Source: Rhodothermales bacterium
GTDB taxonomy: Bacteria; Bacteroidota; Rhodothermia; Rhodothermales; JANQRZ01
Reading direction: 5' to 3'
DNA length: 64,000 bases
Assembly: GCA_028284265.1 (NCBI GenBank)
Contig: JANQRZ010000006.1
Location: forward strand, 391,472 to 455,471
Within the stretch, counting starts at the first letter, position 1. Each line of letters starts with the position of its first letter. The notes under the pieces were generated by a model. The model did not search any database, was not told the origin of the DNA, and saw only the letters and a list, made by a program, of their open reading frames with translations. Position numbers and translations under genes: made by a program. Shown in pieces: positions 2,166 to 29,066 of this stretch.

Positions 2166-2225
2166 TGAGCCAGAAGTGCCCCATCGGAAACGCCATTCGT
2201 CCGGGTCGGGGCTTACACTTTGGTA
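2166..2225 (+). promoter_or_regulatory. Conserved upstream element, copy 1
   Basis: This 60-base block starts 93 bases before the start codon at 2259. It matches, with scattered substitutions, a block starting 91 bases before the paralogue at 13867. Shared blocks are TGAGCCAGAAGTG, GGAAA-GCCATT and GTCCGGG, and the 3' end in both is a TA-rich ACTTT motif (TTACACTTTGG here). The 3' end resembles the TAnnTTTG -7 element of Bacteroidota promoters, but its spacing is one base longer, so the promoter reading is an inference from conservation and position. Confidence 0.55.
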
Positions 2226-2258: not shown

Positions 2259-4604
2259 ATGCGTTATCTATTGTTTCTCCCGCTTCTTTTCCTCACACTC
2301 AGCGTCGGCTCTGCTCACGCGCAGGTATGCGAAGGGAATATTGTTCTCTCGACGCAGGCAGAAGTCGATGCGTTCGACTGCGCAGAGATACTGCCAGACA
2401 CACCCGGAACGGGCAGCCTCACAGTCACGGGATCGAATATCACGGACCTTACCCCGCTGTCGGTTCTCGGTTCGACGGCAAATGGTCTGCGCATTCTCAA
2501 TACGAGTGTCACCTCGCTTGAAGGCTTGGATAACCTCACGACGATCAGTAGTGTCGGGAATTACGGTGCACTCACCGTCACGGGGAACGGGGCTCTGCTT
2601 TCGCTGGAAGGATTAGAGGGGTTGACCATCCTTCCAGGCGATGTTGTGATTACTGGCAACGGTGTGCTGACGCATCTCCAAGGCTTGCAGAATGTGACAA
2701 AAGTCGAAGCGTTTGGTATATCTACAGACCTTACCGTAGAAAATAATCCTGCGCTTCTCTCATTCGCCGGACTGGAGAGTCTGACCATCGTTGATGGCGA
2801 TTTAAGTATTACGAACAACGATGCGCTGACGGCGCTGACAGGATTAGAATCTCTCTCAGGAGTTGACGGCTCTCTCACCATCAGCAATAACGCAAATCTT
2901 GTCTCCCTCTCTGGTCTGGAGGGACTTCTTGATGTCGATGACGACTTGTTCATTTCAGACAACGGGGCGCTCACTTCACTGTCTGCCTTGGAAAGTGTTA
3001 GAAATATCAACCGAGGTCTGATCATTGATAACAATGATGCGCTAGTCCACATTGGTGGTTTAGGTGAACTCACTTCCTTTAAGAATGATACATTCAATAA
3101 CCTGCGCATTTTGTCCGTAACCGGCAACGATGCACTTGTATCTCTGGTAGGCCCCGATACACTTTCGTGGGTGGGTGAGTTGACGATTTCGGGGAACCCA
3201 CTTCTTCAATCGCTAGCAGGTCTGGAGAGCTTGACCGAAACGCCCTACATAGTTATTACTAACAATGAGGCCCTTTCCTCTCTCTCTGGTCTAGACGGAC
3301 TTGTTGAAATCAGGGACTTGAGCATATTGAGTAACAATGCCCTAGAATCGCTCTCGGGCTTAGGTAGTCTGGGTTTGATCGGTGGCTTTATGACTGTTAG
3401 AGACAACGATTCCTTGGGTTCGTTGGTAGGCCTAGAAAGCCTATCTGCCATTGGGGAAGACCTCATCATTGAAAACAACGGCTCCTTAGAGTCGCTAGCA
3501 GGCTTGGAATATTTGATAGAGGTTGAGGAGAGTCTACGCATCAGCGAAAATGAGGTGCTGCTGTCTTTGGGGGGCTTGGAAGGCCTCACGTCTGTTGGTG
3601 AGAACTTTCGCATCACGAGGAACTCATCGCTCGGTTCAGTCTCCGCGCTAGACGGTCTCACGTCCGTCGGGCAGACTTTTAGTATCCAGAGGTCTGATGC
3701 TCTGGAGTCATTGGAAGGACTAGAGTCGCTCGTCTCCGTCCGTAATCTTAGGATCAATAACAATGGAGCTCTACGCGACTGTTCGTGCGGGCTTGAAGGG
3801 CTCATCGCGTTCTCGCCCACAGGTTTTCCCGGGGTCGGCAACGATGCCGATATTTCCGGCAACGACACCACGGGCAACTGTACGTCGCCTGAGGCAGTGC
3901 TCGCGACCCCCTGTCCCTCGTCGATAGAGTTCACAGCGGTTGCTACGAGCAGTACCACGGTTCCGGCAGGCGGTTCGGTCTCGTTCGACTACACGATTAC
4001 CAACAACACGGTCAATGAGGCCTCCGGTGCCCTCTGGTTTACAGCAAACCCAAGTGGCCTGAGCGGGCGAATCATCTCAGGGGCACTACCCGCAGTGAAT
4101 ACCACGGCCGGGAGCTACACGCAGAGTGTACCGGGCAATGCACCGCCGGGAGTGTACGCCTATACGCTTAATGTGGGAGCGTTCTCAAGTAACTATGTCT
4201 TGGACTCTGTACCATTCTCGATTGTAGTAACGGGCACAGCGCGAGCAGGCGGCGGCCCGGAGGCATGGACCGTGTCGGACGTGACGCCGTGGACGGTCGT
4301 AGACGAGGCCGTGGTGACCGCGTCGTTCGAAGCGCAGCCGTCGGCGTTCGCACTGGCGGCGACCTATCCCAATCCGTTCGCGTCGAGCACGACGGTCGGC
4401 TTCGCGCTACCCGAGGCGGCGAACGTGCGGGTGACCGTGCTTGACGTGCTCGGGCGTGAGGTGGCGGTGCTGGTCGATGCGCCGATGGAGGCTGGTCAAC
4501 ACACGGCGCAGTTCGAGGCGAAGGGTCTTTCGTCGGGCGTGTACCTCGTGCGGATGACGGCGGGTGCCTTCGCGACAACGCAGCGGGTGACGCTGGCGCG
4601 GTAG
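2259..4604 (+). CDS. T9SS-exported receptor-L-domain-like solenoid protein, 17 repeats
   Basis: The chosen ATG at 2259 begins a clean signal peptide (MRYLLFLPLLFL...AHAQ); an upstream in-frame start would put 13 polar residues before it. The mature 760-residue protein opens with VCEGNIVLSTQAEVDAFDC, a cysteine-bracketed cap, then about 17 repeats of 22-25 residues with the pattern N-x-A-L-x-S-L-x-G-L-E-x-L. The solenoid ends in a CSCGLEGL cap and a second cysteine pair. This repeat matches receptor L domains (EGFR/insulin receptor type) better than classical leucine-rich repeats. An Ig-like module follows at about residues 558-660, then a WTVSDVTPW linker and a T9SS type A sorting domain from about 700 with YPNPF, VLGREVAVL and GVYLVRM. 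Export to the cell surface is expected. The binding partner is unknown. The repeat part is visibly richer in A and T than the tail. Confidence 0.9.
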   Translation: MRYLLFLPLLFLTLSVGSAHAQVCEGNIVLSTQAEVDAFDCAEILPDTPGTGSLTVTGSNITDLTPLSVLGSTANGLRILNTSVTSLEGLDNLTTISSVGNYGALTVTGNGALLSLEGLEGLTILPGDVVITGNGVLTHLQGLQNVTKVEAFGISTDLTVENNPALLSFAGLESLTIVDGDLSITNNDALTALTGLESLSGVDGSLTISNNANLVSLSGLEGLLDVDDDLFISDNGALTSLSALESVRNINRGLIIDNNDALVHIGGLGELTSFKNDTFNNLRILSVTGNDALVSLVGPDTLSWVGELTISGNPLLQSLAGLESLTETPYIVITNNEALSSLSGLDGLVEIRDLSILSNNALESLSGLGSLGLIGGFMTVRDNDSLGSLVGLESLSAIGEDLIIENNGSLESLAGLEYLIEVEESLRISENEVLLSLGGLEGLTSVGENFRITRNSSLGSVSALDGLTSVGQTFSIQRSDALESLEGLESLVSVRNLRINNNGALRDCSCGLEGLIAFSPTGFPGVGNDADISGNDTTGNCTSPEAVLATPCPSSIEFTAVATSSTTVPAGGSVSFDYTITNNTVNEASGALWFTANPSGLSGRIISGALPAVNTTAGSYTQSVPGNAPPGVYAYTLNVGAFSSNYVLDSVPFSIVVTGTARAGGGPEAWTVSDVTPWTVVDEAVVTASFEAQPSAFALAATYPNPFASSTTVGFALPEAANVRVTVLDVLGREVAVLVDAPMEAGQHTAQFEAKGLSSGVYLVRMTAGAFATTQRVTLAR

Positions 4605-4625
4605 GCGTACTCGCTCGTACAGGTC

Positions 4626-4664
4626 AAGCGGTCGGTTGGGGGCAGCCCTAGCCGACCGCTTTTG
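4626..4664 (+). terminator. Rho-independent terminator, family hairpin 1
   Basis: A 10-bp perfect stem AAGCGGTCGG / CCGACCGCTT (4626-4635 with 4652-4661), extendable inside by a GGG/CCC pair, is followed by a short T run. It lies 22 bases after the solenoid gene. Nearly the same hairpin follows four further genes of this cluster. Confidence 0.85.
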
Positions 4665-4886
4665 CATGGGCGAACGCTGTATCCCATTCTGGGGCGGAGA
4701 TAACCTCGGCACCGGAAAAGAGGCTTGGAAGGTGGGTCAGGGGGAAATGGTGTCTTCGCACGGCGACAACCACCCCGCCTTGAACGAGATCGGAAGAATC
4801 CTTGTCACCTCGCCCGGTGGTCGTCGCTCTCGGTGGCCGTTCGGGCATCTTGGGGTGCCTTCTTCTCCACACACTCCTCCTGTACT

Positions 4887-6506
4887 ATGATATTCTCCTC
4901 TACCTCTTTACCTCCGCTCCGGCTGGCGCTCGTTGCGCTGGCGGTGCTCTTCGCGGCAGGCGTGCCGCAGGCCCAGCCTTCCTTCTGCGCGGGCGACGTA
5001 GTCCTTGACTCGCAGGTCGACGTTGATGTGTTCGACTGTACCCACATCGAAGGTCGCCTCTTCATCGGCCTCAGCTACGAGGACTGGACCTCAGACATCA
5101 CCGACCTCTCGCCGCTGGCGGGTCTCACGACGGTTGGCAGCGATCTGCTCATCCTCGGCAACCATGCGCTCGGCTCGCTCGCCGGGCTAGACGACCTCAC
5201 GGCGGTCGGTGGCTACCTCGCAGTTGCCTCGAACCATGCGCTCGGTTCGCTGTCAGGGCTGGAGAACCTCGCCGCTGTGGGCGGTCTCGCGGTGCTCCTC
5301 AACGACGGACTGGTCTCGCTGGACGGGTTGCAGGGCCTCACCGCCGTCTTCGCGCTGCCGTCGGGCGATCTCAGCTTGCCCACCTCACTGGAGGACCTCT
5401 CGCTGACGGACTTGGACGTGGTCACGGCACTCGGTGGTAACGTCGTCATCGCTTTGAACAGCGGGTTGGCCTCGCTGTCGGGGTTGGACAACCTCGCGGC
5501 CGTCAGTGGCTTCCTTGCGATTGCAGACAACGACGCGCTCGGTTCGCTGTCGGACCTAGAGAGCCTCTCTGCTGCGGGAGGCCTCTTCGTGGTGGACAAC
5601 CACGCGCTGGAAAACCTCGTGGGCTTGCAGAACGTGTTCGCCACGGGCTATCTCTCGGTGGTGAACAACGCTTCGCTGGCGCAGTGCTCGTGCGGTCTCT
5701 CGGGCGTCATCGACCAGGAGCTGCCGCGCGCCTTCACGGGGGTCCTCGGCTCGTCGCTCATCGCCTTCAACGCCCCCGACGGGCAGTGCAACACGGTCCC
5801 GCAGGTGCTCGCCGATACGTGCACGCTGCCGCTGAGTGGCGACCTCACGGCGACCGCGACGACGAGCACCACCGTGCCGCCGGGCGGCTCGGTCTCGTTC
5901 GACTACACGATCACCAACACGGCCCGGACCCTCGCTGAGGGCGACCTCTGGTTCACGGCGATGCCGACCGGCCAGAGCGGGATCGTGCGATCGGGCCGGG
6001 TACGGGCGATGACGACGGTGGCAGCGAGCTTCACCCAGCATGTGCCGGGCGCGATTGAGCCGGGCGACTACACGTACACGCTCAAGGTCGGGCGCTTCCC
6101 GGACCTCGTGATTGACACGACCTCCTTCACGATCACCGTGGAAGGCCCGCCGATCCGTGTGCCGATGGAGTACGAAGCGGTGTGGACCGTGTCGGACGCG
6201 ACGCCGTGGGAGGTGGTCCGTTCGGCCTCGGGTGCGGACACTGAACTGGCGGTGCTCGATGTCGCCTACCCGAATCCGTTCGCTCGGTCGACGACCATCG
6301 GTTTCTCGCTGCTCCAAGAGGCGCAGGTCCGCGTGACGGTCTACGATATGCTCGGCCGCACCGTGGCCGTGCTCGCCGACGGCCAACTGGAAGCCGGGCG
6401 GCACACCGCGACGTTCGACGCGGGCAACCTCGCCAGTGGGGTCTACCTCGTACACCTCGCGGCGGGCAACGTCACCGAGACGCGGCGGGTGACGGTGGCG
6501 CGCTAG
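4887..6506 (+). CDS. T9SS-exported receptor-L-domain-like solenoid protein, 7 repeats
   Basis: The ATG at 4887 starts a signal peptide (MIFSSTSLPPLRLALVALAVLFAAG...AQ). The frame extends upstream to 4725 but that part reads as random basic sequence. The 539-residue protein repeats the family plan: FCAGDVVLDSQVDVDVFDC cap, ITDLSPLAGL, about seven repeats of the N-x-A-L-x-S-L-x-G-L type, one of them degenerate (TSLEDLSLTDLDVV), then a CSCGLSGV cap. The shared Ig-like module (GGSVSFDYTITN to FTITVEG) and a WTVSDATPW linker precede a T9SS type A domain with YPNPF, MLGRTVAVL and GVYLVHL. It is GC-rich throughout, unlike the upstream paralogue. Surface display is the likely fate; the ligand is unknown. 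Confidence 0.88.
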   Translation: MIFSSTSLPPLRLALVALAVLFAAGVPQAQPSFCAGDVVLDSQVDVDVFDCTHIEGRLFIGLSYEDWTSDITDLSPLAGLTTVGSDLLILGNHALGSLAGLDDLTAVGGYLAVASNHALGSLSGLENLAAVGGLAVLLNDGLVSLDGLQGLTAVFALPSGDLSLPTSLEDLSLTDLDVVTALGGNVVIALNSGLASLSGLDNLAAVSGFLAIADNDALGSLSDLESLSAAGGLFVVDNHALENLVGLQNVFATGYLSVVNNASLAQCSCGLSGVIDQELPRAFTGVLGSSLIAFNAPDGQCNTVPQVLADTCTLPLSGDLTATATTSTTVPPGGSVSFDYTITNTARTLAEGDLWFTAMPTGQSGIVRSGRVRAMTTVAASFTQHVPGAIEPGDYTYTLKVGRFPDLVIDTTSFTITVEGPPIRVPMEYEAVWTVSDATPWEVVRSASGADTELAVLDVAYPNPFARSTTIGFSLLQEAQVRVTVYDMLGRTVAVLADGQLEAGRHTATFDAGNLASGVYLVHLAAGNVTETRRVTVAR

Positions 6507-6529
6507 GCCCACCGTGCTGTGACACCTTG

Positions 6530-6566
6530 AGCGGTCGGTCGGGGACAGCCCCGGCCGACCGCTTTT
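6530..6566 (+). terminator. Rho-independent terminator, family hairpin 2
   Basis: A stem of 14 bp, GCGGTCGGTCGGGG against CCCCGGCCGACCGC (6531-6544 with 6549-6562, one G-U pair), is closed by a very short loop and followed by TTTT. It is a variant of the hairpin at 4626. Confidence 0.87.
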
Positions 6567-6696
6567 GCGTTGGATGAGAAAAAATCTGCGAGGGAGGTGT
6601 CCACGGATATGGCGGAACGGCGAGGGGTGAAGTAGAGGGCGATGCGTCGCCTTCGATTCTCTCTACTACCCCTACACCTGTAACCCCCTATTCGCC

Positions 6697-9600
6697 ATGA
6701 CTACGTTCCATGACTCGACCCCATTGCTGCATCCGGTTCGCTCCCTGCTTGCCACGCTGACCCGTGCCGGGGTGCTACTGTTGCTCACCGTCACCTTCGC
6801 CCTCGCCGCGCAGGCCCAACTCAGCGGCACCTACACCGTCGGCGGTGCAAGCCCTGACTATGCCACGATCACCGATGCCGTTAACGACCTTAATGCCTTC
6901 GGTATCTCCGGGCCGGTGTTCTTCCAGATCCGCTCCGGCACCTACGATGAGCAGGTCACGATCAACAACTTCCCCCGCTTCGGCAGTCCGACTGATGCCG
7001 TCACGTTCACCCGAATCTCGCCGCTGTTCGCTCGCCCGGTGTGGCAGTTCTCCGGTGCGTCGATCCTCTCCAACTGGGTCGTCAAAATCGACGGCGCGGA
7101 CTACGTCATCCTGCAAGGGATCGAGTTCGAGGCGGTCGATCCGTTCGATGGACGGCTCGTCGTGCTCGAAGACGGGGCCGACCACAACGTCGTCCGCAAC
7201 AGTGTTCTGACGGGCATCACAGCGGCCCCGTCAAGCCGAGGTACCGTGATCTACGGCATCGGCGACCGTAACGAGCACAACACGTTCGAGGGCAATACGA
7301 TCACGCAGGGCTACTACGGGATCGACCTCGAATCTGTCGATTCTAACACCCGCGCCTCCGGCAACACCGTCGTCGACAACGTGATCGGTGCCCAGACGGA
7401 GGGCGGCGTTCGTCTCCGCTATCAACTCGACGCTATCGTGGACGGCAACACCATCAACGACTGGATCGGCACGAGTGCCACCTATACCGCCCTCTTTGCC
7501 GATGGCGGCGGGACTGAGGTCACGAGCAACGATGTGGACGTTCGTACCGGGGCGAAGGGTATTCAGCTTCAGAGCCTCGGCGTGCTCACGCAGCGGTTCA
7601 TCGCCAACAACCTCGTCAACCTGCGAAGCGGTGCGGCCGCTGATGCGGGCATCGTGCTGACCAACGGTCGGGTGGACCTTCAGCACAACACGGTTCGCGT
7701 CGGCTCGGCGACAGCGGGCACGGCGGCGCTCCGGGTTAATAGCGGCTCGCTCTTCGACGTTCACCTCCGCAACAATCTGTTCATCAACGATGGCGGTGGC
7801 TATGCGCTCAAGGACCCCGACGCGAACATCGCTTCGTCCGACTACAACGACCTCTACACGACGGGCAGCGACCTCGCCGACTGGGACGGCACCGACTATG
7901 CGACGTTGGCCGGATACAAGAGTGCGAGTGGTTTGGATGCCCACTCGGTTTCCGAGGCGATTACGTTCGTGGATATCCTCGGCACGCCGGACCTTCGGCT
8001 CGACGGGTCTTCGCTCGACGATCTTGACCTGATCGGCGAAGCGCTGGGCATCACCGACGACATCGACGGCGACGCCCGCGACGAGTACAACCCGAAGATG
8101 GGCGCTGATGAGGGGACCCCGCTCGCACCGCTCGACGACGCCGACACCGCTTCGGGCTTCTACACCGTCGCTGGAACAGCCCCCGACTTCGCCCGGCCCG
8201 AGGTAGCGTTCGATCACCTCAAGGCGCGCGGGATGAAGGGCGCGGTCTCGCTCCGCATCCGCACGGGCGGCTACGTGCTCAACGTCTCGCTCCCCGGGTC
8301 CGTGCGCGTCGGCCCCGCCGCGACGAACCCGGCGGGTGCGCCGCTCCTCGTCCGCGCCGCCAACCCGAGCAACCGCCCACTGCTCCAGTTCGCCTCGACG
8401 GACCCCAACCGGAACTACGTCCTCCGCCTTAACGGGTTCGACTATGTCACGCTCGAAAACCTCGACCTCGAAGCAGGCGGAGCCACGCTTGGGCGGATCG
8501 TCGTGCTAGCCAACGACGTGGGGAATCTAACGCTCGATGGCTGCACACTCACCGGCATCGCGGGTGCCACGACGGATGCAGCGTCCCTCGTCTTCGGCGA
8601 TGGCAAGGACCAGCACCTTACGTTCACCGGCAACACCTTCACGAGCGGCTTTCGCGGCCTCGATCTCTTCGGCCTCGGCACCTCGGACCGCTCGGTCGGG
8701 AATGAGGTCTCGGGCAGCACGTTCAGCGATCAAGCCCGGAATGGGATGCGCCTCCGCAATCAGGCCGACCTGACAGTCATCGACAACTTCGTGGGTGTCG
8801 GCAGCAATAGCGGTACTGACTTTGTCGGGATGGTGGCAGGTGGTCCGAACCTCGCGTTGGAACGCAACCGCATCAACGCCTCGGGTGGCGAGCGCGGGAT
8901 GAACATCGTCGCCGACGGCACGCCCGCCGACCGGCTCCGCATCGTCAACAACGCGGTCCTGCTCACCGGCACCACCGCCGACGCAGGCATCGACCTCAAC
9001 GCGGGCACGTACCTCGACGTGTATCACAACACGGTGCTTGTGGATGCCACCGGCGCGCTCGCCACGCCGACGGCGCTCCGCATCGAGACCGGAGCGGCGG
9101 AAATCGACATCCGCAACAATCTCCTCGTCAACCTCGGCCAAGGACCGGCCTACGTGATCGAGGACGCCGGGGCGATCATCCGCTCGGACTACAACAACCT
9201 CCGCAGCCCCGGTGCCTACGCCGTCTGGGACGGCGTGACCTACGCCTCGCGCGCCGATCTCCGCTCGGCGGTGGCTCCGAATGAGCTGCACTCGAAGGCC
9301 GTCGCCGTCACGTTCGTCAACCCGGCGGGCGATCTCCACCTCGCGGGAGCCTCGGTCGGCGACGACCGGCTGGCAGGCGAGCCGCTCGCGTCGGTCGGGG
9401 TCGACGTGGATGACGAGGCGCGTTCGACGAAAGCCCCCTACATGGGAGCCGACGAAGCCGCGACGCCGCTGACGGTGGACGACTACGTTCTCGCCGCCGT
9501 CAACACCACGCCGCTGACGGTAGCACCGGGCGGGGCGATTGACTTTACCTACGCCGTCACCAACACGACGAACACCGACGTGGCCGGGGACTTCTGGTAC

Positions 9601-10197
9601 GAAGCCTCGGGTGGTCTCGAAGCGGTCATCATCTCCGGGCCGGTGCAGGCCGGGGATACGTTCAACGCCAGCTTCGTGCAGAACGTGGCGGGTGCCACGC
9701 CGCTGGGGACCTACAGCTACACGCTCCACATCGGCCAGTACCCGAACCTGATTGTGAACTCGGTGCCGTTCACGGTCGAGGTTACCGGCGCGCCGCGGCC
9801 TGGTGGGGCCGACGAGTGGACGGTGAGCGACGTGACGCCGTGGCCGTCGGCAAGCGGGACCGTCGAGGCGTCGGCGATGAGTAGCGCCTCCGAAGTCATC
9901 GATGACCTAGAGGCGAAGTCCGGCGCGCTCCCCTCGACGTTCGCGCTCGATGCGGCCTACCCGAACCCGTTCGCCGCGAGCACGACGGTCGGCTTCACGC
10001 TGCCCGAGGCGGCGAGCGTGCGTGTGGCAGTCTACGATGTGCTGGGCCGTGAGGTGGCAGTGCTGGTGGACGAGCAGCTCGAAGCCGGTCAGCACACGGC
10101 GCGGTTCCACGCCGCCGGTCTGTCGTCGGGTGTGTACCTCGTACGGATGACGGCCGATGGCTTTGCGCAGACCCAGCGCGTGACGCTAGCGCGCTAG
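6697..10197 (+). CDS. T9SS-exported parallel beta-helix protein (two tandem helices)
   Basis: This 1166-residue protein starts with a long signal peptide (core AGVLLLLTVTFALAAQAQ). Two homologous halves follow, each opening with a GTYTV/GFYTVAG...PDFA-type strand and a block like FFQIRSGTYDEQVTINNF or SLRIRTGGYVLNVSLPG, then short asparagine-rich rungs (NTFEGNTI, HNTVRVGSA, RNNLFINDGG) typical of right-handed parallel beta-helices. Each half ends with a SDYNDLY/SDYNNLR and a MGADE motif. The shared Ig-like module runs from about residue 930, then a DEWTVSDVTPW linker and a T9SS type A domain (YPNPF, VLGREVAVLVD, GVYLVRM). Such helices often bind or cleave polysaccharides, but no pectate-lyase catalytic set was recognised, so enzymatic activity is not claimed. 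Confidence 0.87.
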   Translation: MTTFHDSTPLLHPVRSLLATLTRAGVLLLLTVTFALAAQAQLSGTYTVGGASPDYATITDAVNDLNAFGISGPVFFQIRSGTYDEQVTINNFPRFGSPTDAVTFTRISPLFARPVWQFSGASILSNWVVKIDGADYVILQGIEFEAVDPFDGRLVVLEDGADHNVVRNSVLTGITAAPSSRGTVIYGIGDRNEHNTFEGNTITQGYYGIDLESVDSNTRASGNTVVDNVIGAQTEGGVRLRYQLDAIVDGNTINDWIGTSATYTALFADGGGTEVTSNDVDVRTGAKGIQLQSLGVLTQRFIANNLVNLRSGAAADAGIVLTNGRVDLQHNTVRVGSATAGTAALRVNSGSLFDVHLRNNLFINDGGGYALKDPDANIASSDYNDLYTTGSDLADWDGTDYATLAGYKSASGLDAHSVSEAITFVDILGTPDLRLDGSSLDDLDLIGEALGITDDIDGDARDEYNPKMGADEGTPLAPLDDADTASGFYTVAGTAPDFARPEVAFDHLKARGMKGAVSLRIRTGGYVLNVSLPGSVRVGPAATNPAGAPLLVRAANPSNRPLLQFASTDPNRNYVLRLNGFDYVTLENLDLEAGGATLGRIVVLANDVGNLTLDGCTLTGIAGATTDAASLVFGDGKDQHLTFTGNTFTSGFRGLDLFGLGTSDRSVGNEVSGSTFSDQARNGMRLRNQADLTVIDNFVGVGSNSGTDFVGMVAGGPNLALERNRINASGGERGMNIVADGTPADRLRIVNNAVLLTGTTADAGIDLNAGTYLDVYHNTVLVDATGALATPTALRIETGAAEIDIRNNLLVNLGQGPAYVIEDAGAIIRSDYNNLRSPGAYAVWDGVTYASRADLRSAVAPNELHSKAVAVTFVNPAGDLHLAGASVGDDRLAGEPLASVGVDVDDEARSTKAPYMGADEAATPLTVDDYVLAAVNTTPLTVAPGGAIDFTYAVTNTTNTDVAGDFWYEASGGLEAVIISGPVQAGDTFNASFVQNVAGATPLGTYSYTLHIGQYPNLIVNSVPFTVEVTGAPRPGGADEWTVSDVTPWPSASGTVEASAMSSASEVIDDLEAKSGALPSTFALDAAYPNPFAASTTVGFTLPEAASVRVAVYDVLGREVAVLVDEQLEAGQHTARFHAAGLSSGVYLVRMTADGFAQTQRVTLAR

Positions 10198-10220
10198 GGC
10201 GTCGCTGAACGGACAGTTAG

Positions 10221-10262
10221 AGCGGTCGGTCGGGGTTCGCCTCGACCGACCGCTGGTTTTTT
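10221..10262 (+). terminator. Rho-independent terminator, family hairpin 3
   Basis: A perfect 12-bp stem AGCGGTCGGTCG / CGACCGACCGCT (10221-10232 with 10243-10254) with a 10-base loop is followed by GGTTTTTT. It is the third copy of the cluster hairpin. Confidence 0.88.
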
Positions 10263-10337
10263 CGGGTGGATGAGGGAAGGAAAGAGGAAACGGCGATAGG
10301 GGGGTGATTGCCCTCGCTCACTCAACCTCCTCCTCTC

Positions 10338-11639
10338 ATGAAACGCATCCTCCCATGCTTGGGGCCCATTGTCTCGGGCTTGCTTCTCCTCTTCCTCGTT
10401 GCCGCGCCGGTACGCGCTCAGGTGTGCAACACCACGTCGCTCGTGATCAACTCACAGGCCCAACTGGACACCTTTGACTGTGAGGTCTTTACAGGTAGCC
10501 TGTTCATCATCGGCGCGGACGTCACGGACCTTACGCCGCTCTCGGGCCTTACCTCAACGGGTGCGTTCTATCTCAGAAACTCGATGGCGACCTCGCTCGC
10601 CGGGTTGGAAGACCTCGAATCAGCCGGGAATGTCCTCGAGTTTCGGGACAACCCCGCGCTGACATCGCTCACCGCATTGGAGAGCCTCTCCGGCGAGATC
10701 GGAAACACCCTCGCGGTCTTCAATAACGATGCCTTGACATCGCTGGACGGCCTCGAGGGTCTCACCTCGGTTGGCAACTTTCTCCAGGTCCAGTTCAACA
10801 ACGTGTTGAGTGAGTGCTCATGCGGACTGGAAAACCTCATCTCTGGCACCCCACCCACCTTCTCGGGCGTGGGCTTCAACACGATCATTGAGAGTAACGG
10901 GGGTACCTGTACCTCGCCGGAGACTGTGTTGGTCAACCCCTGCACGCCGCAAGGCCCAGTCGATCTCGTCGCCGTCGCCACGAGCAACACCACGGTCAAC
11001 CCCGGCGGCTCGATTTCCTTCCTCTACACCGTCACCAACACGACCGGCGGCGCGGTCTCGGGCGATCTTTTCTTCACCGCCCGGCGCAACGGCGCGACGG
11101 TGGCGCAGGGCGTAGTCCAGTCGGGGACGCTGCCCGCCGGGGCGCGGGTCGGCGCGAGCTTCACGCAGAACGTGCCCGCGAGTGCGCCGCCGGGGAATTA
11201 CAGCTACACCCTCAGCATCGGTCAATTCCCGAACGCGGCGGTGGACTCGGTGCCGTTCACGGTGACGGTGACGGGGCTGCGCGAGCGTGGGCCGGAGGGG
11301 TGGACCGTGAGCGAGGCCATGCCGTGGGTGGACGGTGAGCAGACTCTGCAGCCAGCGTCGTCGGAGGCTGTGCCCGAAGCGTTTGCACTAGAGGCAGCGT
11401 ACCCGAACCCGTTCGCGTTGTCTACGACGGTCGGCTTCGCGCTGCCCGAGGCGGCGGACGTGCGGGTGTCGGTCTACGACGTGCTGGGGCGCGAGGTAGC
11501 CGTGCTGGTGGATGAACAGCTAGAGGCTGGTCGGCACTCGGCGGCGTTCGACGCGCGTGGCCTCGCGTCCGGCGTGTACCTCGTGCGGATGACCTCCGAC
11601 GGATTCGTCGAGGTGCAGCGCGTCACGCTCGTGCGCTAG
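10338..11639 (+). CDS. T9SS-exported receptor-L-domain-like protein, 3 repeats
   Basis: The ATG at 10338 opens a signal peptide (MKRILPCLGPIVSGLLLLFL...AQ); the frame upstream begins only with a TTG at 10308. The 433-residue protein is the shortest family member: a VCNTTSLVINSQAQLDTFDC cap, DVTDLTPLSGL, three L-type repeats and a CSCGLENL cap. It then has the Ig-like module (GGSISFLYTVTNTT to FTVTVTG), a WTVSEAMPW linker and the T9SS type A domain (YPNPF, VLGREVAVLVD, GVYLVRM). A 68-base stretch across the start of its T9SS domain is identical to the same place in the paralogue at 13867, which suggests recent recombination between copies. Confidence 0.87.
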   Translation: MKRILPCLGPIVSGLLLLFLVAAPVRAQVCNTTSLVINSQAQLDTFDCEVFTGSLFIIGADVTDLTPLSGLTSTGAFYLRNSMATSLAGLEDLESAGNVLEFRDNPALTSLTALESLSGEIGNTLAVFNNDALTSLDGLEGLTSVGNFLQVQFNNVLSECSCGLENLISGTPPTFSGVGFNTIIESNGGTCTSPETVLVNPCTPQGPVDLVAVATSNTTVNPGGSISFLYTVTNTTGGAVSGDLFFTARRNGATVAQGVVQSGTLPAGARVGASFTQNVPASAPPGNYSYTLSIGQFPNAAVDSVPFTVTVTGLRERGPEGWTVSEAMPWVDGEQTLQPASSEAVPEAFALEAAYPNPFALSTTVGFALPEAADVRVSVYDVLGREVAVLVDEQLEAGRHSAAFDARGLASGVYLVRMTSDGFVEVQRVTLVR

Positions 11640-11662
11640 GGCGTCGGTGCACGGATCGTCAC

Positions 11663-11699
11663 AGCGGTCGGTCGGGACTCGTCTCGGCTGGCCGCTTTT
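11663..11699 (+). terminator. Terminator-like hairpin, family copy 4
   Basis: AGCGGTCGGTC (11663-11673) pairs over 11 positions, three of them G-U, with GGCTGGCCGCT (11686-11696), followed by TTTG. It sits 23 bases after the three-repeat solenoid gene. Confidence 0.75.
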
Positions 11700-11776
11700 G
11701 CGTTCGCGTACATACGCAGAGTATAATCTGGGTCCTAGCGCTGCTCAGGCTGTTCGGTTCTATCTCCCTCTGTGCC

Positions 11777-13693
11777 ATGCGACGTTTTATCACAATGCTG
11801 CGCCCGCTGTCATTCGTCTTTGGCCTGCTACTGATGTTTGCCAACGGGGTGGCCCACGCGCAGGTCTGTTCTGGAAACTTTATGCTCAGCACACAGGCCG
11901 AGGTCGATGCGTTCAACTGTAGCGAGATATCGGGCCGCCTCACGGTCGGATCGCTCTCTGGGCCGACGGACATTACCGACCTCACGCCGTTGGTGGGCCT
12001 TACGTCGGTGAGCGGTTTCCTTCGCATTTGGGATAACCCCTTGCTGACGTCGCTAGCGGGGCTGGAAGACCTGACGTTCATCGGTGGTCGGTATCTCAGC
12101 CTTCAGGACAACGCCTCGCTAACCTCGCTCTCCGGTCTTTCGGGGTTGACCTCGCTCGGCGAGGACCTCCAAATCGTCGACAACGCCTCGCTGGTTTCGC
12201 TGGCTGGTCTGGAGGGCCTAACCTCGATCAGCGGCCAGCTTCGGATCACAGGCAATGGTTCGCTGGAATCGCTGGAAGGCTTGGTGAATGTGACCTCGGT
12301 GGATGCGGGATTCACTCTCACGGGCAGCAGCGCGCTGTCGTCGCTGGCCGGGTTGGAGAGTCTTGCTTCGGTCTCGTCGGTCTTCAACGTGTTCAGCAAC
12401 GATGCATTGGAATCGTTCACGGGCTTGGAGAGCCTGACCACGGTGGATGGCATTCTATCGATCCTAGACAATGCATCGCTGGAGTCACTGGCTGGTCTGG
12501 AGCAGGTGACAGAAGTCAACGGCACCGTCACCATTCAGGACAACGGCTCGCTGATCTCACTGTCGGGGTTCGACGGCCTAACCTCGGTGCTCGGCCAGCT
12601 CCGTGTCTATGACAATGCGTCGCTGCTGTCGCTGTCGGGGTTGGAGAGTCTAATCTCGGTCGGGGGATACGCCAACATCTCTCGCAACGCCTCGTTGACA
12701 TCGCTGGCCGGACTTGAGAGCCTTGTGGCTGTTGACGACGATCTCTACATCTCCGATAACACCGTTTTGGCGTCGCTGTCGGGGATCGAGAGCCTCGTCG
12801 CGGTTGGCGATGATCTCACGATCTACAACAACGCCGCGTTGAGCGACTGCTCGTGCGGGCTGGCAGACCTAATCTCCGGTGAGCCGCCCGCCTTCACGGG
12901 TGTCTCTGGTTCCATCTCCATCTTCGACAACGCCCTGGGCGGTGACTGCACCGCGCCGGAAATGGTACTTGCAGCGTCGTGCGCTGTGCCGCTGCCTAGC
13001 TTTGCTCTCTTTGCTATCAACACCAGCCCACTTGGTACGCCGGTCCGGGTAGCACAGGGCGAGTCCATCGTCTTCGATTACAGCGTCACCAACACGACGG
13101 ACAGTCCGGTCTCGGGTGACCTCTGGTATACCGCCCAGCGCAATGGCACGACGGTGGCACAGGGAATCGTCCAGTCGGGAACAGTGCCGAGTGACGAGGT
13201 CGTGGCTGGGAGCTACACACAAGACGTGGCAAGTCAGGCGCTGCCGGGGATCTATGTCTACACGCTGAACATCGGCCACTTCCCGGATATTGTTGTGGAC
13301 TCAGTCCCGCTCGTGGTACGTGTCACGGAGTCGGTAGGCAGAGTCACGCAGGCAGGGTGGGCCGTGAGCGGTGCTACACCGTGGTCATCGACCAGCGACG
13401 TAGTCCCATTTTCATCCGAAGCGCTGCCCTCAACGTTCGCCCTCGATGTGGCCTATCCCAACCCGTTTGCCTCGTCTACGACGGTCAGTTTCACGCTGCC
13501 CGAAGCGGCGGACGTGCGGGTGTCGGCTTACGACGTGCTCGGGCGCGAGGTAGCCGTGCTGGTGGACGAGCCGCTGGAGGCGGGTCGGCACATGGTGGCG
13601 TTTGAGGCCGCTGGTCTGTCATCGGGCGTATACCTCGTGCGGATGACGGCGGGTGCCTTCGCCGAGGTGCAGCGCGTGACACTGGCGCACTGA
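11777..13693 (+). CDS. T9SS-exported receptor-L-domain-like solenoid protein, 11 repeats
   Basis: The 638-residue protein begins with a signal peptide (MRRFITMLRPLSFVFGLLLM...AQ). It has the same plan as its neighbours: a VCSGNFMLSTQAEVDAFNC cap, DITDLTPLVGL, about eleven regular repeats of the N-A-S-L-x-S-L-x-G-L-E-S-L type and a CSCGLADL cap. The Ig-like module (ESIVFDYSVTNTTD to LVVRVTE) is somewhat more diverged, and the linker reads WAVSGATPW. The T9SS type A domain has YPNPF, VLGREVAVLVD and GVYLVRM. The ladder of almost identical repeats makes length change by recombination plausible. The partner bound at the surface is unknown. Confidence 0.89.
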   Translation: MRRFITMLRPLSFVFGLLLMFANGVAHAQVCSGNFMLSTQAEVDAFNCSEISGRLTVGSLSGPTDITDLTPLVGLTSVSGFLRIWDNPLLTSLAGLEDLTFIGGRYLSLQDNASLTSLSGLSGLTSLGEDLQIVDNASLVSLAGLEGLTSISGQLRITGNGSLESLEGLVNVTSVDAGFTLTGSSALSSLAGLESLASVSSVFNVFSNDALESFTGLESLTTVDGILSILDNASLESLAGLEQVTEVNGTVTIQDNGSLISLSGFDGLTSVLGQLRVYDNASLLSLSGLESLISVGGYANISRNASLTSLAGLESLVAVDDDLYISDNTVLASLSGIESLVAVGDDLTIYNNAALSDCSCGLADLISGEPPAFTGVSGSISIFDNALGGDCTAPEMVLAASCAVPLPSFALFAINTSPLGTPVRVAQGESIVFDYSVTNTTDSPVSGDLWYTAQRNGTTVAQGIVQSGTVPSDEVVAGSYTQDVASQALPGIYVYTLNIGHFPDIVVDSVPLVVRVTESVGRVTQAGWAVSGATPWSSTSDVVPFSSEALPSTFALDVAYPNPFASSTTVSFTLPEAADVRVSAYDVLGREVAVLVDEPLEAGRHMVAFEAAGLSSGVYLVRMTAGAFAEVQRVTLAH

Positions 13694-13714
13694 GAGCGCG
13701 AGAGGCCGGAAACA

Positions 13715-13750
13715 AGTGGTCGGTTGGGGTTTGCCTCGGCTGGCCGCTGC
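13715..13750 (+). terminator. Degenerate terminator-like hairpin, family copy 5
   Basis: AGTGGTCGGTT (13715-13725) can pair with GGCTGGCCGCT (13737-13747), using several G-U pairs. No T run follows (GCTGTATG), so it may terminate poorly; it is included because it is clearly the same element as the four upstream hairpins. Confidence 0.5.
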
Positions 13751-13775
13751 TGTATGTGACGAGTGCTTAGAGGGA

Positions 13776-13836
13776 TGAGCCAGAAGTGGTACATGGGAAA
13801 TGCCATTTGTCCGGGGGCGTGTATGTACTTTAGGTT
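13776..13836 (+). promoter_or_regulatory. Conserved upstream element, copy 2
   Basis: This block starts 91 bases before the start codon at 13867 and matches the block at 2166-2225: TGAGCCAGAAGTG, GGAAA-GCCATT, TGTCCGGG and a 3' TACTTTAGG. The 3' motif is one mismatch from the TAnnTTTG -7 consensus of Bacteroidota, and a TTTG lies 16 bases upstream of it, so a promoter is the best reading. Confidence 0.55.
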
Positions 13837-13866
13837 CAGTCTTGTATCGCCTAATCCCCCGATGCC

Positions 13867-15594
13867 ATGCGACACCTCTTGTTTCTCGGGTTGTTCTGTT
13901 CTCTGCTGGCTCTGCCAGTGCATGCCCAAGTGTGCGAGGGCGATCTCACGCTCTCATCGCAGGCTCAGGTTGATGCCTTCAACTGTGAGGTCGTGATCGG
14001 CGACTTTGTGATCAGCGGAGCCGACATCACGGACCTGACGCCCCTTACGGTCCTGGACTCGCTCGATGGCAGCTTCAGCGTTGTCGATAATCCGGTCCTG
14101 CCAACGCTGACGGGATTGGAGAACTTGGGCTACATGGAAGGGCGCGACTTCCGCATTGAGGACAACGCTTCGCTGGTCTCTATCGCCGCCCTGGCAGGGT
14201 TGACGACCATCGACCTCAGCATCATCAAGGTCAGGAATCATCCCGTCTTGGCTTCGCTGGCGGGCTTGGAGAACCTGACCAGCGCTGACCGATGTACCTT
14301 CTCAAACAACGATGCGGTCACGTCCTTGACCGGGCTGGAGGGGCTTACCCGCTGCGGTATGTTCCTCATTCAGGACAACGCCTTGCTGGAGTCGATGGCG
14401 GGACTGGAGAACCTCAGCGTCGTCGGCTGGCACTTCCGCATCGAGAACAACGCCTCGCTGACCTCGCTCTCAGGGTTGGAGGGCGTTTTCTCTGTCGGGC
14501 AGGGGCTGTTTTCGCCCGGCAACCTCCGCATCGAGAATAATGCATCGCTGCCATCCCTCTCGGGACTAGATGGCCTCGCCTCGATCGGGCAGAACCTGAT
14601 TATTGTGAACAACGATGCGCTGGAATCGCTCTCGGGCCTAGAGAGCCTCACCTACATCGAGGAAGACCTCCGCATCGTCGGCAACGACGCCCTAGAGTCG
14701 CTTTCAGGGCTGGAGAGTCTCAACAACCTCGTCATCAGTCTCACGCTTGAAGACAACGGGGCGCTGGCTGCGTGCTCGTGCGGACTGGCCGGTATCATCT
14801 CCGGCAACCCACCCGCTTTCGATGTCAACCAGCCCGTCACGATTACGGGCAATGCCTCCAGCGGTACCTGCACCTCGCCGGCCGCTGTGCTCGTCAATCC
14901 TTGCACGCCGGAAGGGCCTTACGACCTCGTCGCCGTCGCCACGACCAGCACCGAGGTGAACCCCGGCGGCTCGATCCCCTTCCTGTACACCGTCACGAAC
15001 ACGACCGGCAGCCCGGTCTCCGGCGACCTCTGGTTCACCACGAATCTGGGCGAGCCGGCAGGGCAGATCGTCTCGGGGACGCTTCCGGCGGGGCGGACTT
15101 TCGGCGGGAGCTTCACGCAGAACATCGCGGGTGATACGGCACCGGGGACGTACAGCTACACCCTCAGCATCGGTCAATTCCCCAATGCCATCCAAGACTC
15201 GGTGCCGTTCGAGATTACCGTCACGGGGCTGGCGCGCGAGGGAGGCGCGGATGCGTGGAAGGTCAGCGACGTGACACCGTGGCCGTCGGTCGAGAAGACT
15301 GATCTCGTATCATCGTCGGAGGCTGTGCCCGAAGCGTTTGCACTAGAGGCAGCGTACCCGAACCCGTTCGCGTTGTCTACAACAGTCGGCTTCGCGCTGC
15401 CCGAGGCGGCAGACGTGCGGGTGACGGTACTTGACGTGCTCGGGCGCGAGGTAGCAGTGCTTGTGGACGAGCCGCTGGAGGCGGGTCGGCACTCGGCGCA
15501 GTTTGAGGCCGCTGGTCTGGCCTCGGGCGTGTACCTCGTGCGGATGACCGCCGACGGATTCACCGAGGTGCAGCGCGTCACGCTCATGCGATAG
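13867..15594 (+). CDS. T9SS-exported receptor-L-domain-like solenoid protein, 9 repeats
   Basis: A short signal peptide (MRHLLFLGLFCSLLALPVHAQ) precedes a VCEGDLTLSSQAQVDAFNC cap, DITDLTPLTVL and about nine L-type repeats, two of which repeat NDALESLSGLESL exactly. After the CSCGLAGI cap come the Ig-like module (GGSIPFLYTVTNTT to FEITVTG), a WKVSDVTPW linker and a T9SS type A domain (YPNPF, VLGREVAVLVD, GVYLVRM). The 575-residue protein shares its upstream element with the gene at 2259 and a 68-base identical stretch with the gene at 10338. No family hairpin follows: the gene ends six bases before the convergent gene at 15601. Confidence 0.89.
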   Translation: MRHLLFLGLFCSLLALPVHAQVCEGDLTLSSQAQVDAFNCEVVIGDFVISGADITDLTPLTVLDSLDGSFSVVDNPVLPTLTGLENLGYMEGRDFRIEDNASLVSIAALAGLTTIDLSIIKVRNHPVLASLAGLENLTSADRCTFSNNDAVTSLTGLEGLTRCGMFLIQDNALLESMAGLENLSVVGWHFRIENNASLTSLSGLEGVFSVGQGLFSPGNLRIENNASLPSLSGLDGLASIGQNLIIVNNDALESLSGLESLTYIEEDLRIVGNDALESLSGLESLNNLVISLTLEDNGALAACSCGLAGIISGNPPAFDVNQPVTITGNASSGTCTSPAAVLVNPCTPEGPYDLVAVATTSTEVNPGGSIPFLYTVTNTTGSPVSGDLWFTTNLGEPAGQIVSGTLPAGRTFGGSFTQNIAGDTAPGTYSYTLSIGQFPNAIQDSVPFEITVTGLAREGGADAWKVSDVTPWPSVEKTDLVSSSEAVPEAFALEAAYPNPFALSTTVGFALPEAADVRVTVLDVLGREVAVLVDEPLEAGRHSAQFEAAGLASGVYLVRMTADGFTEVQRVTLMR

Positions 15595-15600
15595 CCCCCA

Positions 15601-18306
15601 TCACCGCATCATGGTTACGCGCTGGGTGGCTACCACCTCTCCTGTGCTCATTCTGACGACATAGACACCACTCGGCAGGGCAGAGCCGTCGAAGATGACG
15701 GTATGGTTGCCCGCCTCGACCATGCCGTCGCTCAACATGGCCACCTGACGTCCGAGTACGTCATAGACGGCGAGGTACACCTCGCTCGCCTCGGGCATGG
15801 CGAAGCCAATGGTGGCGATGTCGCGCGCGGGGTTCGGGTAGACCGCATCCAGCATCGCCGTTGTCGGTAGCGAGGCGCGCCCGGCTATTGGCGGTACGGT
15901 GGCGTCTTCCCACCCGTTCACCTGCCAGTCAGTGACAGCGACGGGTTGTGCTTCGCTACTTGGGTTGAGGGCTGTTTTTTCGACGGCGAAGCCATCGCTG
16001 GACCGCGAGGCTCCGAAGGTGTCGCCCACGTTGACCGTGTAGGTGTAGGTCCCGCCCGGAGCCACGCCCGGCACATTCTGCGTCAGCGTCTGCGTGCGCG
16101 TCCCGCCCGGCGGCAGGGTGACCGTGAACGGGCCGAGGAGTGGGCTACGGTTGACCGGCCCGGTGGCTTCACTCCACGCCACGAAGGTCTGGGGCTGCGC
16201 GGTGTTGTTGGTGAGCGTGACGGTGAAGTCGAAGGTGCCGCCCGCGGGGGGGAGGACCACCGGCTCGGTGACCGTCGCGGTGACAGCGACGTCTTCGAGT
16301 AGGACCTGTTCGAGGAAGAAGGCCGCGTTCTCCGGGGTCACAAAGATGTGGTCCTCGTTGATGGGCGTCGGGGCGAAGAAGATGGCATCGAAGGGGGTCT
16401 TGCTAAGGAGGTCCGGGTCGTCTTCGAGGTCATAGAAGAGGTCTACCGGGCTGCCGTTTGTGTCGCGTAGGTCGAGGCCGCTGATCGTCGGGACGAAGGA
16501 GTGGCGGGGGAAGTCAGTCTGAATATCGCCGAGGTCGAAGTCGATCCCGAGGATGCTCAGGGACGGTTCGACGGCGGCGAGTTCGGTCTGCGAGTCGCGC
16601 CAGCCGCCGGGGGCGTTGTCGTAGGGCAGTGTGTTGACAGCCGACACGTTGAGGGCATCACCGAAGAGGAAAAAGACCGTGATGTCGCCCTCGAAGATGC
16701 GCGTCTCGGGCGTGCCATCGGGCACGGCCCAGATGTTTCCGGTGACGTCGATGACGAGGATCTCGGTGTGCTCCCATTCGAGGATCTGATCGCCCGGAGC
16801 CATCGGCACGCCACTATCGCTGATCTGGGCCGCGTCGGGGCCGGATCCACTGCCATTGGAGATTGCCACCTTCCGCATCGACGGGTAGTTGCCCAGAAAC
16901 GCCAGCTCGGTGAAGAGAGCTTGCCGCAAGATGTTCGCCGCCGGGTTCGGGACGGAGGTGTAGTGGTAGTAGAGCTGCTGCTGCGCGGCAGGCGAGTTCA
17001 TCCCGGTCAGGAAGCGGACGGCGTCGTCGTTGTACTCGGCGAAGAATTCGACCCAGAACTGGTCGCCCAGCGGAATGTTGGCCCCTTGGTGAGGGCTGTC
17101 GAAGGAGACGGCCAGCCGCGTCTCGGGGTCTTGGCCCTGTGCCTCCATCCACGCGAGGGCATAGCGCCAGACGAGGCCTCCCATGCTGCCACCCGAGACG
17201 ACGAGCGGCTCCTCGCCTACGCGCTCGTCAATCACGCGCTCGATGAGGTGGACGAGAGCGAAGGCGTTGCGCTGGACGAACGTAGTCGCGTCGTCAAAGT
17301 CGAGGATGATGAGGTCGAAGCCGTTTGCGAGGAGGTCGTCCGCCAGTCCTTCTTCGCTGATGATCTCGAGAATGTCCGGCCAGTCGATGTCGTTGAGCAG
17401 GTCGAAGCCCTCGGCGAAGATGATTGGCTTCGTGATCTCGGTGTGGCCGTCGCCGAGAAAGACGTAGGCGGCATACCCGGCTACATCGCCCGCGTAGGCG
17501 AGGTCGGCGACCTGGTTCTCCCAGAAGAAGTCCGGCTCCCGTCCGCCGCGCTTCACCTCTACCGTAAATGCGGCGTGCAGCACGGTACCATCGGCATAGT
17601 GGCCGTTCAATGTGGCGCGCTTCGGTCCCGGCGTTGCGTAGCGCACCGTCGCGGTCTCGTCGAAGGCGAGCGGACGCGGCCCTGCCCCATCACCGAAGTC
17701 CACCGTAATACGCTGTGGCGCGTTCTGGTTCGAGAAATAGAGATCACGGTCGAGGCGGAAGGTGGCGGCCTGGCCGGCATAGACCCCGTCATCGAGTGCC
17801 GCCGCGGCGAAGGCGTTGCGCTCCACGTAGGGCGACGTCGCCCGGCCCGGCACGTCGCGTACCACGCCGTCTTCCAGCCGCAGCAGCCCCTGATCTAGCG
17901 CGCCCTCGGTGACCGCGTTGTACTGGACATAGAGCAGGCCCAGCGGAATAGTCCCGTCCTCGCTGTGCCGCCGAGCCGTCGTTCGCACGTCATCCGGGTT
18001 CGGAAGCGTCGCCGGGGTCCAGGCGCTGCGCTCCAACTCGAAGTAGAGCTGCCGCCAGTCTCGCGCCGTGGCCGCCGGAGCGGCTGCCGTGCCGTCGTAG
18101 GCCTCGGCGTCGACGAACGACAGGACGGGGCTGTACAGGATGCCCGTTGGAATCGCCGAGCGGTCTAGGTCGCTGAAGAGGGCATCGAGTTGGGCGCGAA
18201 CGTCGGCGCGCTTCCCGGTCACAGTAAGCTGCGGTTGCGCGAACGCCCCGGCGGAGAGCAGGAGGCCGAAGAAGACGGTGCAGAGGAAGGCGGCGCGGGC
18301 GTTCAT
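15601..18306 (-). CDS. T9SS-exported lipase-like alpha/beta hydrolase
   Basis: The 901-residue protein has a signal peptide (MNARAAFLCTVFFGLLLSAG...AQ). An uncharacterised N-terminal part is followed by a PKD-like segment near residues 195-250 (VDFGDGAGPRPL). The hydrolase core carries a nucleophile elbow SGGSMGG with Ser374, and SFDSPHQGANIPLG soon after, as in PGAP1/GPI-inositol-deacylase-like and triacylglycerol lipases; LIILDFDDATTF precedes the elbow. The catalytic His may be the one in EDHIFVTPENA, an inference. A diverged Ig-like module and a T9SS type A domain (YPNPARD, VLGRQVAML, GVYVVRM) end the protein. It is convergent with, and only six bases from, the solenoid array, and likely acts on the cell surface or outside it. 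Substrate unknown. Confidence 0.85.
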   Translation of the reverse strand: MNARAAFLCTVFFGLLLSAGAFAQPQLTVTGKRADVRAQLDALFSDLDRSAIPTGILYSPVLSFVDAEAYDGTAAAPAATARDWRQLYFELERSAWTPATLPNPDDVRTTARRHSEDGTIPLGLLYVQYNAVTEGALDQGLLRLEDGVVRDVPGRATSPYVERNAFAAAALDDGVYAGQAATFRLDRDLYFSNQNAPQRITVDFGDGAGPRPLAFDETATVRYATPGPKRATLNGHYADGTVLHAAFTVEVKRGGREPDFFWENQVADLAYAGDVAGYAAYVFLGDGHTEITKPIIFAEGFDLLNDIDWPDILEIISEEGLADDLLANGFDLIILDFDDATTFVQRNAFALVHLIERVIDERVGEEPLVVSGGSMGGLVWRYALAWMEAQGQDPETRLAVSFDSPHQGANIPLGDQFWVEFFAEYNDDAVRFLTGMNSPAAQQQLYYHYTSVPNPAANILRQALFTELAFLGNYPSMRKVAISNGSGSGPDAAQISDSGVPMAPGDQILEWEHTEILVIDVTGNIWAVPDGTPETRIFEGDITVFFLFGDALNVSAVNTLPYDNAPGGWRDSQTELAAVEPSLSILGIDFDLGDIQTDFPRHSFVPTISGLDLRDTNGSPVDLFYDLEDDPDLLSKTPFDAIFFAPTPINEDHIFVTPENAAFFLEQVLLEDVAVTATVTEPVVLPPAGGTFDFTVTLTNNTAQPQTFVAWSEATGPVNRSPLLGPFTVTLPPGGTRTQTLTQNVPGVAPGGTYTYTVNVGDTFGASRSSDGFAVEKTALNPSSEAQPVAVTDWQVNGWEDATVPPIAGRASLPTTAMLDAVYPNPARDIATIGFAMPEASEVYLAVYDVLGRQVAMLSDGMVEAGNHTVIFDGSALPSGVYVVRMSTGEVVATQRVTMMR

Positions 18307-20997: not shown

Positions 20998-21017
20998 TCG
21001 CTGACTGGGTGAATCAC

Positions 21018-21067
21018 TGATTGGATGATTGGAAGGTCAATCGGCGAATCAGCCAATCGCTCAATCA
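21018..21067 (-). promoter_or_regulatory. Imperfect inverted repeat between sigma factor and kinase genes
   Basis: TGATTGGATGATTGG (21018-21032) pairs with CCAATCGCTCAATCA (21053-21067) apart from three central bases, and the interval also contains CAATC and GAATC motifs. It sits in the 107-base gap of the sigma-kinase pair. It could attenuate read-through or act as a binding site; no T run follows. Confidence 0.4.
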
Positions 21068-21104
21068 CTCCATGCTCTTATGCGCTTTGCCGGCGTGGGT
21101 TGGG

Positions 21105-21686: not shown

Positions 21687-21887
21687 GGACGTGTGGTCTA
21701 CGAATCGCAACATTCGCACGGTGGCCGAGAAAAGCAAGGGGCGTCGGGCACATGGTGAAGGACCTCTAGGCGTAAGGTCCAGAGGACCAAGGGCAAGGCT
21801 CTTTCCGATAACTCTCCTCCCGTAAGCGAGGCGAAATTCGGAAACCGAGCGTGTCAACAGCCAAGGAGTGAAGCAGGCTTCTGCTCC

Positions 21888-29027: not shown

Positions 29028-29066
29028 TCTGCCCTCTGCCCTCTGCCCTCTGCCCTCTGCCCTCTG
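29028..29066 (+). repeat. Tandem 7-bp repeat (TCTGCCC)5 plus partial in the queG leader
   Basis: Five exact TCTGCCC units (29028-29062) and a TCTG remnant end five bases before the queG ATG. The tract fills the place where a Shine-Dalgarno sequence would be and contains no purine-rich stretch. Unit number could change by slippage. Confidence 0.85.

Follow-up and report, generated by a model that had tools for sequence, protein, structure and literature searches.

A stretch of 64,000 nucleotides from a Rhodothermales bacterium (assembly GCA_028284265.1, contig JANQRZ010000006.1; hereafter, the window) carries five co-oriented genes, A to E, each encoding a repeat solenoid followed by an immunoglobulin (Ig)-like module and a type IX secretion system (T9SS) sorting tail. 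This raises the question of what such an array does and whether its differences in repeat number reflect ongoing diversification. An initial annotation, made from the sequence alone, described the proteins as receptor L domain solenoids, differing mainly in repeat number, that might form a diversifying surface recognition or adhesion system. We favor a different reading, with a probability of about 0.6: A to E are T9SS-exported leucine-rich repeat (LRR) binding proteins or adhesins with an Ig-like spacer, and they make up an old tandem family.

Shared anatomy and predicted export of the array proteins

The shared anatomy that had been proposed for the five genes was borne out. Five co-oriented open reading frames (ORFs) lie exactly at 2259-15594 (Table 1), with position 4887 as the best start of B and 10338 as that of C. 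All five proteins begin with a hydrophobic signal peptide (judged by eye) and the motif QVCxGxxxLSTQAEVDAFxC, continue with units of about 24 residues following the pattern xLxSLxGLxxLxxVxxxLxIxNN, and share six invariant cysteines, namely, an N-cap pair (C24 and C41 in A) and four in the CSCGL cap. A sixth co-oriented gene, BH, was missing from the initial annotation; it lies between B and C and ends in the same type of module and tail.

The assignment of these proteins as T9SS-type cargo was also supported. The tail models PF18962 and TIGR04183 were over their cut-offs in A to E, with TIGR04183 scoring 35-47 bits at the C termini of these proteins and of BH (cut-off, 23), and the genome encodes a PorU sortase (1003.5 bits over two adjacent pieces on contig C20; cut-off, 420) and at least 150 T9SS tails. 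About 30 places in the genome match E across the Ig module and tail jointly at E < 1e-35, and the Ig-T9SS module is a genome-wide cassette that is not specific to the solenoid family. The Ig module is missing from the two other solenoid genes of the same genome (contigs C14 and C15) and from most relatives in other genomes. The syntenic gene of the sister species does have it, and the module therefore marks the lineage of this locus. A grouping of the array tails as one clade found no support: among 28 Ig-plus-tail modules, A to E did not form one group, and only C and E were clearly paired. Recent array-wide homogenization of the tail is thus not supported by this grouping.

Age of the differences in repeat number

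A repeat matrix applied by dynamic programming, which was built from 24 units of the window and which the window proteins therefore match partly by construction, gave about 16-17, 7, 3, 12, and 10 units in A, B, C, D, and E, respectively, compared with 0-1 units in shuffled copies of these proteins and none in BH. Gene C yielded four matrix matches, but the final one falls on the CSCGL cap, leaving three repeats. Earlier counts made by eye (17, 7, 3, 11, and 9) were right within one unit, the discrepancy lying in how the first cap-like turn (DITDLTPL...) is counted.

The claim that the genes differ mainly in repeat number proved wrong: the ectodomains are 46-51% identical to that of D. Across 48 repeat units, DNA identity averaged 0.48 (0.36 at third positions), and none were near-identical, the best pair reaching 0.75. 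Units within a gene were barely more alike than units from different genes (0.492 versus 0.475 DNA identity; 38 of 2000 shuffles as high), and Tandem Repeats Finder (TRF) detected no tandem repeats in 2259-15594. Nothing pointed to recent duplication of units, to slippage, or to gene conversion between them. The unit-level identities and the TRF result led us to reject active repeat expansion, and the active length diversification suggested earlier is not supported. Given the absence of near-identical units, the differences in repeat number among the paralogues are old. Genes C and E have the most similar tails (74% amino acid identity in the Ig module plus tail; 69% at third positions) and yet carry 3 versus 10 repeats, a contrast implying that, on the timescale of that duplication, either the number of repeats can shift or N-terminal parts can be exchanged. 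The five genes are most likely old, diverged copies that arose by duplication and domain swapping.

We compared one genome per species, including that of the sister species, the only other species of the genus. There, one end of contig C1 holds genes for a DUF3179 protein (82% identity) and an AI-2E-like permease (84%) and, after them, a solenoid gene's N-terminal half; one end of contig C17 holds the C-terminal half and, after it, genes for a kinase with tetratricopeptide repeats (kinase-TPR; 78%) and an extracytoplasmic function (ECF) sigma factor (92%). Both contig ends (L055:1-230 and L053:5260-5396) stop inside a DDE transposon, IS5-type by appearance, with GAGACTGTTTGGT as inverted repeats and a directly repeated TTA (3 bp). 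When a single TTA is counted, the open frame and 24-residue register run on across the insertion. Most likely, the sister species has one gene of about 12 repeats at this locus, split by an insertion sequence, and the gap between C1 and C17 leaves room for more. This gene is about 49-55% identical to A to E, whereas its neighbors are 78-92% identical. The locus differs in gene content between the sister species, with five genes plus BH in one and apparently a single gene in the other.

These data bear directly on the alternative that the array is a diversifying repertoire, in which fast change in repeat number and sequence would serve variable surface recognition or immune or phage evasion. 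The contrast between C and E in repeat number despite their closely matched tails, the difference in copy number between the sister species, and the lower cross-species identity of the solenoid genes (about 50-55%) relative to their neighbors are all expected under such a scenario, and the number of tandem LRR genes in Flavobacterium psychrophilum varies among strains (PMC8400371). However, the repeat units themselves, with their low third-position identity and no TRF repeats, argue the other way, and a cross-species identity of about 54% could come from comparing paralogues rather than orthologues. We consider rapid diversification unlikely.

A shared 3' cassette and the beta-helix gene

The N-terminal 900 residues of BH match a right-handed beta-helix (PF13229, E = 8.5e-14), and its C-terminal 237 or so residues are an array-type Ig-like module and T9SS tail. 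This portion shows 50-66% identity to its counterparts in A to E, the same level at which the A to E modules resemble one another. About 25 bases past the stop codons of A, B, BH, C, and D lies a 32-base hairpin sequence that, at three or fewer mismatches, occurs at only these five places in the genome and was not found in the sister species. The five hairpins have stems of 15-16 bp and z values of -3.8 to -5.6 relative to shuffles, and a terminator scan called two of the copies, in which the T run is clear enough. Pairing is 100% kept across the copies, with two double changes; 31 of 500 shuffles did equally well, so the covariation signal is weak and no more than suggestive.

These features are most simply explained by duplication of a gene-plus-terminator cassette and, in the copy that became BH, by replacement of the solenoid with another fold or its fusion to one, which makes BH a probable domain swap. 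Alternatively, recombination may have run in the reverse direction, copying the tail and terminator onto a resident beta-helix gene. Going further, the locus could act as a bank of cassettes, with a constant 3' portion (Ig module, T9SS tail, and array-specific terminator) onto which N-terminal recognition folds, whether LRR solenoids of any length or a beta-helix, are swapped by recombination, yielding a repertoire for surface recognition whose content changes from species to species. We regard this extension as doubtful; if true, it would offer a tractable example of surface-protein evolution, with N-terminal folds exchanged on a fixed export module.

Upstream of the genes, A and E share a 36-base element that occurs nowhere else in the window or in the examined loci. 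No promoter shared by all array genes was found, this element being common to A and E only, and a sigma-70 promoter scan, whose model does not cover Bacteroidota promoters, returned nothing useful.

Predicted fold and variable face of the solenoids

Structures were predicted with AlphaFold2 from window sequences and locus homologues, for full-length D (pLDDT 84.2 overall and about 95 over the solenoid) and for the ectodomain of A (pLDDT 93.0, pTM 0.88), which was modeled alone because Foldseek searches with full-length D were dominated by its Ig and tail half. Both models show a single continuous solenoid with one beta-strand per 24 residues, about 13 turns in D and about 18 in A, closed by one pair of caps (an N-cap helix and a C-cap). 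The nearest folds to D were RPP1 (Z 22.5 over 336 residues at 4.3 Å), a Roco LRR (20.6), and internalin A (20.5), and those to A were SHOC2 (20.1), YopM (20.0), Leptospira LRR proteins (18-20), internalins (17-19), and LGR4/5 (16-18), although repeats inflate these Z values and root-mean-square deviations (rmsd) were often 6-11 Å with differing curvature, so the matches support a fold class and not a specific relative. Searched against the PDB, a profile built from the five ectodomains matched LGR5, internalin B, and an SDS22-like dynein light chain, and growth-factor receptors were not among the matches. The solenoids of A to E are thus predicted to be of LRR class, elongated and right-handed, with one strand per turn of about 24 residues.

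In the models, each strand corresponds to unit positions 16-20, with positions 17 and 19 (L and I) in the core and 16, 18, and 20 pointing outward. These three outward positions are the most variable of the 15 noncore positions, both in the window (entropy of 3.14 versus 2.10 bits; 1 of 455 three-position subsets as high) and in 76 homologue units (3.39 versus 2.54 bits; 4 of 455 subsets as high), a pattern that fits a ligand-facing sheet in the modeled structures. It also bears on whether A to E might be structural or matrix proteins, such as spacers or S-layer or biofilm scaffolds, that have no specific ligand. Such a role would suit the low-complexity, Ala/Ser/Gly-rich character of the repeats and a Foldseek match, with large rmsd, of the biofilm scaffold RbmA to the C-terminal half of D, but the concentration of high variability on the outward strand face argues against it, as does the low copy-to-copy conservation, which would be unusual in a lattice protein. 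We find this role quite unlikely.

The earlier label stood only in part. PF01030 (Recep_L_domain) is the best Pfam family for A, B, D, and E (49.1, 28.6, 55.3, and 29.0 bits; cut-off, 21.8), whereas C had no PF01030 match in the profile search, and LRR_EndoS fell just short in A (27.5 bits against a cut-off of 27.9) and lower in B to E, while reaching 32.5 bits in the C14 paralogue of the same genome. L domains and LRRs are members of one superfamily. The label is therefore not wrong with respect to fold, but nothing is gained from a connection to growth-factor receptors. The profile and fold comparisons group these elongated solenoids with LRR proteins (internalin, SHOC2, LGR, and nucleotide-binding LRR receptors); the label is best read here as denoting an LRR-class binding solenoid. 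The L domains of insulin and EGF receptors are short, with few turns and their own caps, and the solenoids of A and D do not fit this description. That A to E are true receptor L domains, bacterial relatives of insulin/EGF receptor ectodomains that serve in signal reception, is very unlikely: the PF01030 scores and the presence of insulin and IGF1 receptors in the structural list for D (Z 12-14, as short pieces) are outweighed by solenoids of up to about 17 turns with a single cap pair, by LRR proteins that score higher (Z 17-22) and cover the whole solenoid, by the PDB profile matches, and by the lack of any transmembrane or kinase part in the A to E proteins. Within the literature collection searched, we found no publication on bacterial receptor L domains with T9SS.

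Proposed function and comparison with known systems

In the LRR adhesin reading, where we infer export, anchoring, ligand binding, and adhesion from sequence, each protein would be made with a Sec signal peptide and carried across the outer membrane by the type IX machinery via its C-terminal sorting domain. The capped solenoid would then be displayed or released on its Ig-like spacer, and its outward strand face, the most variable part of the repeat, would bind a ligand outside the cell, whether a polysaccharide, a protein, or a further cell. The proteins would thus act as adhesins or substrate-capture proteins. The copies would stem from the duplicated gene-plus-terminator cassette, one of them having had its solenoid replaced by the beta-helix.

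The closest published parallel is the THC0290_0171-0186 region of F. psychrophilum, which we compared through published descriptions (PMC5682007, PMC8400371). There, consecutive LRR genes, 16-23 ORFs depending on the isolate (PMC8400371), encode proteins with TIGR04183 tails; in gldD and gldG mutants, these proteins are lost from the supernatant or less abundant in it (PMC5682007). Export there depends on gliding/T9SS genes, and gene number is variable. That array belongs to another order or phylum-level lineage, and its copies are alike enough to collapse in short-read mapping, whereas A to E are about 50% identical. Internalins (Listeria InlA, InlB, and InlF; Z 17-20) are bacterial proteins that likewise carry an Ig-like module after a capped LRR solenoid, but they use sortase/LPXTG or other cell wall anchors and shorter LRRs of about 22 residues, in place of the T9SS tail, the units of about 24 residues, and the conserved cysteine caps seen here.

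Several points weigh against our reading. The sister-species gene appears to be broken by a transposon and would therefore be dispensable in at least that species; the parallel with F. psychrophilum rests on the descriptions in the papers; and a variable strand face is usual in LRR proteins and does not tell which ligand is bound. Since tandem T9SS-secreted LRR arrays have already been published, the present array is ordinary in kind. It rises slightly above the ordinary in the apparent swap of an N-terminal fold on a shared Ig-T9SS-terminator cassette and in the contrast between its several genes and the sister species, where a single gene, broken by a transposon, appears to be present. The array also takes tandem T9SS-exported LRR solenoids beyond Flavobacterium, as a clear, well-modeled example in which the caps, the Ig spacer, and the variability of the strand face have been mapped.

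Wider relatives and genomic context

Among 59 other genomes of the order, the five-ectodomain profile detected family members in 7, with weaker matches elsewhere in Bacteroidota; one of the latter lies in a contig binned as Thalassobius that is probably misbinned, although this is a guess. PF01030 at E ≤ 1e-4 matched 4 of 118 genomes of the phylum, and comparison with the window-based profile indicates that the Pfam model is insensitive here. Bacteroidota T9SS proteins with multicopy Recep_L-like domains, such as those in Chryseolinea, Saprospiraceae, and Flammeovirgaceae (loci L046-L048), resemble A to E in N-cap motif and repeat pattern, at 25-35% identity, but they are long single genes with several capped solenoids each, in contrast to the tandem single-solenoid genes of the array. 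A genome of the same order (G009) contains a single ORF of 2378 residues (L061:2423-9556) in which about 38 solenoid units were detected, grouped into several capped blocks. The permease gene of another genus in the family directly adjoins DnaK with no solenoid gene between them, and a relative of BH occurs elsewhere in the sister species (contig C2).

Table 1. Coordinates of the array genes, associated elements, and flanking genes in the window
Feature	Position	Strand	Description
Permease-like gene, AI-2E type (left flank)	949..2139	+	named by eye from sequence; sister-species orthologue adjoins solenoid gene
Upstream element (36 bases), A copy	2167..2202	+	shared by A and E; possible promoter or leader; 0 expected by chance
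Gene A	2259..4604	+	781 aa; signal peptide, N-cap, ~17-turn solenoid 2505-3767, CSCGL cap, Ig+T9SS tail 3924-4601
Hairpin after A	4627..4660	+	terminator-like
Gene B	4887..6506	+	539 aa; ~7 repeats 5094-5672, one degenerate; Ig+T9SS tail 5826-6503
Hairpin after B	6530..6563	+	terminator-like
Gene BH	6697..10197	+	1166 aa; right-handed beta-helix (PF13229), no solenoid; Ig+T9SS tail 9484-10194
Hairpin after BH	10221..10254	+	followed by T run
Gene C	10338..11639	+	433 aa; ~3 repeats 10584-10802; same caps; Ig+T9SS tail 10947-11636; no PF01030 match
Hairpin after C	11663..11696	+	array-specific
Gene D	11777..13693	+	638 aa; ~12 repeats 11969-12835; Ig+T9SS tail 12989-13690
Hairpin after D	13715..13748	+	no T run
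Upstream element (36 bases), E copy	13777..13812	+	shared by A and E; possible promoter or leader
Gene E	13867..15594	+	575 aa; ~10 repeats 14023-14760; Ig+T9SS tail 14911-15591; tail closest to C tail
T9SS-tailed protein (right flank)	15601..18306	-	weak alpha/beta-hydrolase and PKD matches
Ser/Thr kinase-TPR gene	18403..20997	-	directly after solenoid gene in sister species

The G+C content is 63%. The right-flanking gene is convergent with E at a distance of 7 bp, its weak hydrolase-like matches are to PGAP1/LCAT, and no full-length match to its protein was found in the sister species. Beyond it, at 18403-21857, the Ser/Thr kinase-TPR gene adjoins an ECF sigma factor gene; this pair is kept beside the sister-species solenoid gene, and a regulatory link is possible. 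Farther along the window, at 29028-29066, is a perfect 7-base tandem repeat (TCTGCCC, 5.6 copies).

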